Source: Cyanobacteria bacterium bin.51
GTDB taxonomy: Bacteria; Cyanobacteriota; Cyanobacteriia; PCC-6307; Cyanobiaceae
Assembly: GCA_013203655.1 (NCBI GenBank)
Contig: JABMPN010000005.1
Location: 1-35,802 of the forward strand
Reading direction: 5' to 3'
Length of the DNA: 35,802 nucleotides
Below are positions 161-2,911 of the stretch, piece by piece. Positions within the stretch are counted from its first letter, which is position 1; each line of letters begins with the position of its first letter. The translations under genes and the position numbers were made by a program. Below the pieces are notes generated by a model. The model was given only the letters and a program-made list of their open reading frames with translations, made no database searches and was not told the origin of the DNA.

Positions 161-1240
161 GTGGCAGAAGCTGAACGACCGATACGAAAGCGTTTCAGCC
201 TCGATCTGCCCTTGGATCGTCTTGCGCAGTTCGATCAGCTCTGCAGCGAGTGGGGGTATCGCAAACGGGGCGATGCCCTGGAGCGACTTCTCAACCATCT
301 GTTCAGCGGTGAGGACGATCTCGAAAACGAAGACGACAATCAAGACGCGCTCGTCTTGCATGAGAATGGTTCTCTCGTGCTCCTTGCCAACAGCCACCAA
401 GCCGAACTGGTTTTCGACTTCGAAGCGGCCAGCACTCCGCCAGACGCGCCAGAGGCACTTACTGTTCCTGCTGACCAGGCTGTCGCTGAGGGCTTGCTCG
501 CTCCGGAAGCCGCGCGAGCCCCTGATCCACAGGCGGCTGCGGGATCACGGGGCCGAGGCACGGGGATTGATCTGCCTGGGTTTGTCAAGCAGAAATCCGA
601 CCGGTTGCGCCAGAGCCTGCATCCCCGTCCGACAGGATCGACGCGGAGCCTGGAACCGTTGCCGCCGTTGGCCCCGATCGATCTGGAGCAAGCCTTGCTG
701 GCCACACGGGAGCATTGGCTGACCCTTTATGGGACGGAGGCCAATGCGGCGGTGCTGGAAGCCTCCATGATCTGGCTGGCCCAGGAGATCTGGCCCCAGT
801 CCGACCAATCCGATGGCCGCCCCTTCACCTGGTCGTTGGCTGAGCAGTGGATTCTCGGTGTCATCCCGGCCTGGCCGGCTGGGCCGGCCAGTTTCGATCG
901 GGTGATGGTGGCTGCCGGATTGCTCGAGGACCCCTTCAGCACTGAGACCCTGACGCTACGGATCCCCACCTTGATCCGTCGTTTCGTGCACCGCTTCCGC
1001 CGGCGCCATCGCGGCACCTCCTTCCAGACCCTGGAGCACACCATGACGCTGCAGGGGGCCCTGGGTCAGCTGAACCTGCCCACCCAGACCGGCCATCGCC
1101 TCAGTCTCAATCAGATCAGGGAGGCTTACCGCGAGCAGGCCCTGAATCACCATCCCGACGCAGGTGGCAGTGCCGATGCGATGCGGCGTCTCAACGAGGC
1201 CTACCAGCTGCTCAAGGAGCTCTACCGCACCAAGGCCTGA
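161..1240 (+). CDS. J-domain (DnaJ-like) protein with a ribbon-helix-helix-like N-terminus
   Basis: A 359-residue protein with a C-terminal J-domain at about residues 314-359, including the HPD tripeptide at 331-333 that stimulates Hsp70 (DnaK) ATPase. It has no Gly/Phe region, zinc-finger domain or DnaJ C-terminal domain, so it is a type III (J-only) co-chaperone and not DnaJ itself. Residues 8-48 read as one short beta strand (RFSLDLP), a helix, a Gly-Tyr turn and a second helix starting KRGDALERLL, which resembles a ribbon-helix-helix DNA-binding fold. A long acidic, Ala/Pro-rich linker follows. The start is GTG at 161, with a strong AGGAAGGAG ribosome-binding site at 146-154. The client is unknown. 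The J-domain call is firm; the N-terminal fold is my inference. Confidence 0.85.
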   Translation: MAEAERPIRKRFSLDLPLDRLAQFDQLCSEWGYRKRGDALERLLNHLFSGEDDLENEDDNQDALVLHENGSLVLLANSHQAELVFDFEAASTPPDAPEALTVPADQAVAEGLLAPEAARAPDPQAAAGSRGRGTGIDLPGFVKQKSDRLRQSLHPRPTGSTRSLEPLPPLAPIDLEQALLATREHWLTLYGTEANAAVLEASMIWLAQEIWPQSDQSDGRPFTWSLAEQWILGVIPAWPAGPASFDRVMVAAGLLEDPFSTETLTLRIPTLIRRFVHRFRRRHRGTSFQTLEHTMTLQGALGQLNLPTQTGHRLSLNQIREAYREQALNHHPDAGGSADAMRRLNEAYQLLKELYRTKA

Positions 1241-1543
1241 GTGACTCACTGGACGCATACGGGTCCTATCACTGGTCTTGGACCGAGTCTTGTATGAGCA
1301 GAATGATCAAGTGGTTTGGCTCTTGCGTTTGTGGCTGCTCTCGCCCCGGTCTGCAGGCGTCAGCGATCTGATTTCGGATTTCTGGTTACGGGTTTCGGTT
1401 ATCAGGTTCCCTTCAAGTTTCGGGTTTGGGCAATCGGACTTCAGGTTTCTGCCCTGCGGATTTGTTGTCCAATCCGATCGTTTGCCGATGTCCAGTGCCA
1501 ACGAGCCCTTCTCTAAATCCTTGCTGAAACTGGGTTTCATGCC

Positions 1544-1576
1544 CTTGCGTACCTGCTCATTAAGCAGGTACGCAAG
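1544..1576. repeat. Perfect 14-bp inverted repeat with 5-base loop
   Basis: The arm CTTGCGTACCTGCT (1544-1557) pairs without mismatch with AGCAGGTACGCAAG (1563-1576) around the loop CATTA. No T-run follows on either strand, so it is not a standard intrinsic terminator. It lies about 300 bases after the J-domain gene stop. A stem this long and perfect in non-coding DNA suggests an RNA structure or a protein-binding palindrome. Confidence 0.85.
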
Positions 1577-1745
1577 CAGGTCAGCGCGTCCGCTTTGCTC
1601 GTTCTGCGTTCCTGCCAGCGATCAGGACGTGTGGAAACGGCGAGGATGGTGAATGTCAATGTTGCGATCGATGGCTTTTGTCGAAAACCAGGGCTGTTTG
1701 CGCACCAAGTTCGTGAGATTGGACTTGATGCACCCTGCCGAGAAA

Positions 1746-1781
1746 ACGCAGATTTCAGGTGATTTCATCTGACCACTGCGT
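1746..1781. repeat. Nested two-tier inverted repeat
   Basis: An outer stem ACGCAG (1746-1751) pairs with CTGCGT (1776-1781). An inner stem CAGGTG (1756-1761) pairs with CATCTG (1766-1771), with one G-U pair and a 4-base loop. Together they would fold as a single interrupted hairpin in an RNA. It lies in the gene-free interval upstream of nothing obvious. Confidence 0.55.
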
Positions 1782-2244
1782 CTTCTGCTAGTCAGTCCCA
1801 TGACGACCCGCGTGCCGATCTCCTCAATGTTTCGATGCCGAGTTGGGCTCTCCTCCGGTCCGCTTTGGAACTGCCTGGTTGCGTCTCCCGTGATTCCCAT
1901 TCAAGTCCTATTCTCAGTCTCGAAATAAGTCTTGGATTGCCCTAACGCGTCTCATTTGATTCTTATTATCAGTCTTGCTATAAGACTAATCGGCGTCTAT
2001 TGAGCCATTGTGCTGGCATGATTTGGCAGGTGCGTTCGACCCACAGTGCGTAGGGCGCCCGCCGCACTCGTCTGCTGCAAGCCCGCTGAGGTGAATGCAC
2101 AAGCTTTCTCAATCGAGACTTACAGGTAGTCCCTTGTAGAGACCAGTTTTATAGCCATGACTCTGGCTCGACCATTTTGCAGGACTGCGGGTCTTGCAAG
2201 AGAGTTTTGCCTGTCTCGGATGAGAACTGAAATAGGTCCAATGT

Positions 2245-2264
2245 TGAATCCAGGACTGGATTCA
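2245..2264. repeat. 20-bp near-perfect palindrome
   Basis: TGAATCCAG (2245-2253) is followed, after GA, by its exact reverse complement CTGGATTCA (2256-2264). The very short centre suits a dimeric protein-binding site better than an RNA hairpin, although pairing eight bases around a 4-base loop is also possible. It lies 3' of both flanking genes. Confidence 0.6.
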
Positions 2265-2359
2265 TGGCGAAGCCTTTCGAGCCTGCAGCGGCCTTGGGGC
2301 CTGTTCCATGCCCCTTTTGGGTACAGACCTTTTGGACAGCATGGGGCTTCCGACTGCTG

Positions 2360-2375
2360 AAAACCCTCGGCAGGG
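2360..2375 (-). terminator. Possible weak terminator downstream of apcD
   Basis: Read on the minus strand, a short GC stem CCCT-GCCG-AGGG (2375-2364) is followed by TTTT (2363-2360), about 40 bases after the apcD stop. The stem is only four base pairs, so this is a tentative call. Confidence 0.25.
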
Positions 2376-2416
2376 GGCCGTCCTCGCTGAGCAAAGGTGG
2401 CTGACTAGGTGGAGCC

Positions 2417-2911
2417 CTAGACCGAGGTCTGCATGCCCTGGATCAGGAAGTCGAAATAGGGCGAGGCAACGGCGGCGTCTTCAGTGCCGAGCAGCACCAA
2501 GGAAGCGGCTTTCAGGCTGCGCATGCTCTGCACCATGCCGGCCATCGGAACGCCCAGGCTGTTGTACATCTCCCTGGCACCGACCAAGCCGATCTCCTGG
2601 ATTTTTTCGGTGCTGCCGGCCATCACGCCGTAGGTGACCAAGCGCAGGTACCAACTGAAATCCCGTAGGCACTGGGCCCGCTGTCGCTGCCCGTAGGCAT
2701 TGCCCCCCTGGGCGACGTAGTCGGGCTTGAGCTGGAACAGCTGCCGGGCCGATTCACTGACAATTTTTTTCTCGTTTTCGGTCAGCACCCGGGCAATTCT
2801 GATGCGCTGGGTTCCGCCCGAAAGGAACTGCGCCATCGAACTCAATTCACCGCCGCTTGGGTAGCGAAGCTGATCATCGGCTTGCAGGATCAGATCCCGG
2901 ACAACGCTCAT
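2417..2911 (-). CDS. apcD: Allophycocyanin-B alpha subunit (ApcD)
   Basis: A 164-residue phycobiliprotein that begins MSVV and carries [11 protein letters not shown] near the N-terminus, as ApcD does. The phycocyanobilin attachment cysteine is C81 (motif CLRD). The conserved core NAYGQRQ...[10 protein letters not shown] precedes and follows it. ApcD is a far-red terminal emitter in the phycobilisome core and helps pass energy to the photosystems, particularly PSI. The usual length is about 161 residues, so this copy is full length. The other core genes (apcA, apcB, apcC, apcE) are not here, which is normal for apcD. ATG start at 2911; the ribosome-binding site is weak. Confidence 0.95.

Follow-up and report, generated by a model that had tools for sequence, protein, structure and literature searches.

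A putative dif-like site with one-sided accessory motifs at the replication terminus of picocyanobacteria, and its copies on viral contigs

Introduction

What does a bacterial chromosome keep in a gap of 1176 bp between the ends of two convergent genes? We addressed this question in a window of 35,802 nucleotides, the whole stretch of DNA analyzed here, from Cyanobacteria bacterium bin.51 of the family Cyanobiaceae (GCA_013203655.1, contig JABMPN010000005.1, positions 1 to 35,802). A preliminary description of the window had suggested a non-coding RNA gene, a decayed gene or a replaceable spacer. We find that the probable functional part of the gap is a DNA dyad flanked by a one-sided array, which that description did not anticipate, and from sequence comparisons the dyad is most likely the site at which picocyanobacteria cut and rejoin joined sister chromosomes. 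A survey of dif sites that succeeded in many bacterial phyla found none in any cyanobacterium tested (PMC3025954), a later genome paper predicted no dif in cyanobacteria (PMC6416890), and xerC has been reported as rare in these organisms (PMC5101192). Because dif predictions failed (PMC3025954, PMC6416890), dimer separation in these abundant photosynthetic bacteria is a standing question.

Results

A DnaJ-domain gene and an ApcD-like gene converge in the window, and their stop codons bound the gap at 1241-2416:

161..1240, + strand, DnaJ-domain protein gene (PF00226, E=1.2e-6)
2417..2911, − strand, ApcD-like phycobilisome gene, right-hand convergent neighbor (PF00502, E=5.4e-57)

None of the ORFs tested within the gap matched Pfam at E<=1 and GC content is 0.535 compared to 0.649 for the window, confirming that this is a large gene-free convergent interval of lower GC. 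Several stem-loops had also been described: one, at 1544-1576, is exceptional, with an RNA fold z-score of −4.3, and the rest are background relative to shuffled sequence. Comparison across relatives, proposed earlier as a check, shows that most of the gap is unalignable within the genus, with the hairpin retained. Convergent gaps of ~870-890 bp occur in two genomes of the same genus, G001 and G003, and only the hairpin can be aligned with the window. A third genome of the genus, the complete genome G002, aligns on both flanks and has its equivalent gap filled, between the aligned parts, by a second ppx/GppA-HD gene and an IS3-family element. Window positions 1562-1678 share 79% identity with the 3′ end and flank of this second gene (ppx2), defining two further features:

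1622..1678, − strand, what remains of a second ppx/GppA gene, its final 19 codons, by similarity to G002 ppx2
1679..1821, no strand, stretch where G002 has the remaining ppx2 and the IS3 element, with homology back at 1714-1735 and 1822

The reading of the gap as a decayed gene thus holds for 1622-1678, where 57 bp of the ppx2 3′ end survive, and is rejected for the gap as a whole. Replaceable spacer is an apt term for most of the remaining sequence, largely unalignable as it is within the genus, but it does not fit the dyad and its array. Together, the same-genus comparison (G001, G002, G003, G000) indicates that the gap tolerates gene gain and loss while one short sequence stays fixed.

Additional features accompany this turnover. 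The second ppx/GppA-HD paralog in G002 lies beside the IS3 element inside the dif-like interval (L009:3730-6758), G000 carries a 72% identical ppx2 copy on contig C38 (L060), which also bears a tyrosine integrase gene, and the second ppx/GppA-HD gene looks mobile within the genus. The gap of the window also contains two sets of imperfect direct repeats, at 1365-1447 and 1895-1987, of TTTCnGGTT-like and TCAGTCTTG..ATAAGTCT-like sequence.

The exceptional hairpin encloses a compact dyad with two inverted half-sites:

1544..1576, no strand, extended palindrome CTTGCGTACCTGCT-CATTA-AGCAGGTACGCAAG, with perfect 14-bp arms and a 5-nt loop
1547..1573, no strand, 27-bp core dyad GCGTACCTG-N9-CAGGTACGC, dif-like site, from family-wide pattern searches
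1556..1564, no strand, 9-bp central spacer, putative strand-exchange region, of constant length in relatives

The core pattern GCGTAYCTG-N9-CAGRTACGC matches once in the window and in 0/100 shuffles. Searching 151 Cyanobiaceae genomes with GCGTAYCTG-N(5-15)-CAGRTACGC recovered this Y/R form in 52/151 genomes, as a single copy in each except one genome with two, and a reversed control pattern gave 0 matches in the same 151 genomes. With spacers of 5-15 bp permitted, every match has a spacer of exactly 9 bp, and all share a 9+9+9 architecture of two inverted half-sites and a central region that falls within the dif-type range of ~6-11 bp. A form with looser arms is present in 86/151 genomes and in 63/94 good genomes, and 17 of a further 20 genomes carry a form with 1-4 mismatches in the equivalent interval downstream of the DnaJ gene, itself matched in 137/151 Cyanobiaceae genomes. 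Diverged cores, found also in genomes of ~30-35% GC, are often altered symmetrically, with one change repeated in the two arms (GCATAACTG/CAGTTATGC and GAGTACCTG/CAGGTACTC). The core spans the Cyanobiaceae including Prochlorococcus and lies nearly always within the DnaJ-ApcD interval, and named records that carry it include Synechococcus WH 5701, Vulcanococcus limneticus, many Cyanobium and Prochlorococcus. Where the core was found it occurs once per chromosome, as is typical of dif, with genome G164 as the sole exception. A REP-like repetitive element was rejected because each genome holds one copy of the core.

The second core copy in G164 (L372:3306-3332) is on a phage-like contig of 10.4 kb (G164:C20) that encodes a capsid protein and a DUF3854/replication protein, and it has no exact TGTCCA motif at the position usual for the accessory sites described below. 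In genus g18, a search of the DnaJ gene's surroundings for 9-9-9 dyads of any sequence found no recognizable core (L419 of G020, L426 of G119 and L430 of G140); these genomes have ~29% GC in the region, retain the DnaJ gene and encode a candidate recombinase, introduced below, that is 50-51% identical to that of G000, and their core may have moved or changed. A cyanobacterial-type site also occurs on a contig filed as Bifidobacterium breve (L233:6884-6910), and a Bacteroidetes MAG contig (L321:36-62) carries a site that, flanks included, is almost the same as in viral contigs L141 and L189; both contigs look like binning errors.

A stable and conserved hairpin between convergent genes could be transcribed, as part of a non-coding RNA or as a terminator acting in both directions, which its RNA fold and covarying arms would suit. 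The arms do covary above shuffles, and the covariance test proposed earlier would have come out in favor of an RNA, but such covariation fails as proof because it is equally a property of DNA dyads. Rfam searches over the gap at gathering and permissive thresholds returned nothing credible, and a promoter scan of the gap found no sigma-70-like match. The terminator scan gave two terminator-like matches in the gap, approximately the shuffle expectation, and passed over the hairpin, which has no T-tract after its stem and lies 218-1260 bp beyond the end of the DnaJ match among oriented sites. Stem pair 6 is mispaired in 13/54 distinct sites and pairs 2-5 in 12 cells. In several genera GCGTCACTG faces CAGGTACGC, which breaks the stem and leaves both half-sites recognizable. 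Self-complementarity of the spacer is inconsistent among relatives, and in viral copies its pairing is approximately at chance level. The earlier reading as a non-coding RNA is therefore not sustained. We regard a role in a transcript as highly improbable, and it leaves the terminus position and viral copies described below unexplained. A DNA site is favored by the constant length of the spacer, the position at the terminus, the array on one side and the copies in viruses.

The DNA beside the core is likewise patterned. The most enriched 6-mer within 120 bp of the core is TGTCCA/TGGACA, which is found near 74/81 chromosomal cores compared to 7/81 control segments and near 75/101 viral cores compared to 10/100 controls. 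Orienting 115 distinct sites by the DnaJ gene revealed TGTCCA at 40-95 bp on the DnaJ-gene side in 103/115 sites and on the opposite side in 3. TGTCCA start positions peak near −57, −68, −79 and −89 relative to the core, approximately one helical turn (~11 bp) apart. Two copies occur in the window, spaced 23 bp apart (1466 and 1489):

1466..1471, + strand, TGTCCA accessory site, putative arm-type, starting at −81 from the core (oriented-site peak at −77..−81, 43 copies)
1489..1494, + strand, TGTCCA accessory site, putative arm-type, starting at −58 from the core (oriented-site peak at −56..−58, 63 copies)

In viral contigs L091-L210, many cores also have TGTCCA/TGGACA no more than 10 bp away (35 copies of the motif among 100 contigs), a placement almost absent from chromosomes.

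We mapped the site in 18 complete chromosomes, where its distance from dnaN has a median of 0.477 of the circle and a minimum of 0.362; as a control, the gene of the candidate recombinase lies at 0.326. Gene order is conserved, so the terminus positions of the 18 chromosomes are not independent and GC skew provides the more direct result. Taking dnaN as the origin and trying each possible position of the other break across 32 sampled 20-kb blocks of G002 puts the best GC-skew break at 2.52-2.53 Mb; the site is at 2,530,667, and skew differs between the two arms (Mann-Whitney p=0.003). GC skew is weak overall, noisy in G012 and informative in one genome, G002. Like dif-type sites, the core is thus located at the terminus and, in G002, coincides with the shift in GC skew.

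A candidate enzyme for this site is similarly widespread. A divergent tyrosine recombinase of ~390-400 amino acids matches in 142/151 genomes and in 93/94 good genomes, with 91 of the 93 at E<1e-120; in the loci read, hemH and cobO flank its gene. The protein matches PF00589 above the cut-off (E=9.8e-7), assigning it to the tyrosine recombinase superfamily, and conserves the catalytic signature R, LRHxW, GHS and Y, with residues R, H, R, H and Y invariant. Its closest relative in the Protein Data Bank is archaeal XerA (4a8e), and its scores against NCBIfam models are far below the cut-offs for XerA (20.9 versus 220 bits), XerS (19.7 versus 267) and XerD (15 versus 330), so we do not file it as XerA or XerS. 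A recombinase profile found no match in the loci examined in two other cyanobacteria (G039 and G053). Two phage homologs, 31-32% identical, resemble it in the N-terminal extension as well as in the catalytic part. The structural model of a phage homolog is poor as a whole (pTM 0.31) and contains a confident N-terminal domain with a helix–three-strand–helix fold (H-E-E-E-H); structural matches to its core-binding domain include XerA, XerH and lambda Int, the last in an alignment that covers residues 1-183 and reaches into the arm-binding domain, with a Z-score of ~8 that alone is not decisive. Foldseek with this low-confidence model returned no match at E<=0.001, and Pfam assigned no domain to the N-terminus of the host recombinase. 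We detected no PF01580 match to FtsK above the cut-off in 22 genomes. XerCD/dif comprises two recombinases and FtsK, and the Cyanobiaceae encode one conserved divergent tyrosine recombinase; lacking these defining features, the site is not filed under XerCD/dif. Since site and recombinase are both nearly universal, we infer that the two are paired.

A symmetric dyad at the terminus with phased accessory motifs would suit any DNA-binding protein that contacts multiple sites, and a different terminus protein such as a replication fork trap, an SMC/ParB-type loader or a nucleoid organizer might bind the dyad with no recombinase involved. We consider this unlikely: fork traps are polar arrays and not lone palindromes as here, a strand-exchange site better accounts for the constant 9-bp spacer, the strict arms and the recombinase-less phage copies, and no candidate for such a protein was found while the recombinase is nearly universal.

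The core is also present on at least 120 viral contigs in IMG/VR, compared to 1 and 6 viral contigs for scrambled palindromes of the same composition. Genes neighboring the viral cores include phage terminases, portals and ThyX, and the nearest isolates of these genes include cyanophages. The array is one-sided in 67/105 viral contigs (~two thirds) and on both sides in 1, indicating that the composite site of core and array has been copied. PF00589 recombinases are absent from 29/30 viral records tested, which reach up to 87 kb and may be fragments, and the same 29/30 thereby show the hallmark of IMEX elements, a dif-like site on an element without a recombinase. Only 3 viral contigs carry a Prochlorococcus-type core, and 5/120 viral spacers equal a chromosomal spacer among the matches listed. 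Among the viral contigs examined, none has host flanks (DnaJ, apcD or methyltransferase gene) and none has an integration junction between phage and host site, and the site is absent from five isolated cyanophages (P-SCSP1u, KBS-S-2A, S-H1, MED4-184 and MED4-117). With no host flanks, few shared spacers and five isolates without the site, we treat viral integration as a hypothesis; alternatively, the viral copies may serve in the resolution of phage multimers.

These viral copies raise the further explanation that the dyad is mainly an attachment site for a phage or element (attB), or a fixed remnant of an ancient attP, and plays no part in dimer resolution. A core with phased, one-sided arm motifs resembles an att site, the recombinase has relatives among phage integrases, and many viral contigs bear the site. 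An attB would, however, not be expected nearly base-for-base at the terminus across a family, even in genomes of ~30-35% GC. The recombinase gene stays fixed between its neighbors, no integrated element was seen at the chromosomal site, and the second copy is confined to the phage-like contig of G164. We therefore judge this explanation improbable.

Discussion

Sequence evidence makes it probable that the gap holds a dif-like site for terminus resolution. Its accessory sites are of a putative arm type, a single recombinase resembling integrases would act on it, and cyanophages would borrow it. In the mechanism we propose, the core-binding and catalytic domains of the single recombinase would bind the two half-sites while its N-terminal domain would bind the TGTCCA array, the enzyme would pair the two sites of a chromosome dimer, and strand exchange in the 9-bp spacer would yield monomers. 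Polarity would come from the one-sided array, which could also stand in for the control exerted by FtsK in other bacteria. Phages with a copy of the site and no recombinase may borrow the host enzyme for integration or to resolve their own multimers. We hold more tentatively, at somewhat short of even likelihood, the full proposal that a domesticated phage-type integrase reads a composite terminus site, with the array in place of FtsK control, and that abundant cyanophages copy the site to use the host enzyme.

A defined site of ~110 bp and one candidate enzyme make the dimer-resolution hypothesis testable. A one-sided phased array operating without FtsK would be a different mode of reaction control, the viral copies suggest that cyanophages exploit a host recombinase in a way not recognized before, and the site offers a marker of the replication terminus where GC skew is weak.

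Comparison to known systems reveals partial likeness to several of them. XerCD/dif shares the terminus location, one site per chromosome and dyad half-sites, and differs in its two recombinases and FtsK. Archaeal dif/XerA is a single-recombinase, FtsK-independent system (PMC5357621, PMC2958812) and, as here, combines one tyrosine recombinase with an inverted-repeat terminus site. The likeness extends to the lack of detected FtsK and to XerA as the best PDB sequence relative, but the cyanobacterial recombinase falls far below the XerA model cut-off. We know of no accessory array or N-terminal extension described for XerA. XerH/difH and XerS/difSL (PMC5357621) likewise use a single recombinase longer than XerC/D and have a central region of 6-11 bp, compared to 9 bp here; in those systems the gene is beside the site and the reaction depends on FtsK, whereas here the gene is far away and FtsK was not detected. 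In lambda-type integrase systems, the att sites similarly combine a core dyad with phased one-sided repeats, and the recombinases have an N-terminal arm-binding domain, putative in our case; these systems belong to mobile element modules and differ from the fixed chromosomal site and fixed gene observed here. Finally, the IMEX phages CTXphi, VGJphi and TLCphi exploit host Xer with a dif-like site and no recombinase of their own (PMC5357621, PMC4246890), as the viral records described here may do; the difference is that here tailed-phage contigs copy both the core and its one-sided array.
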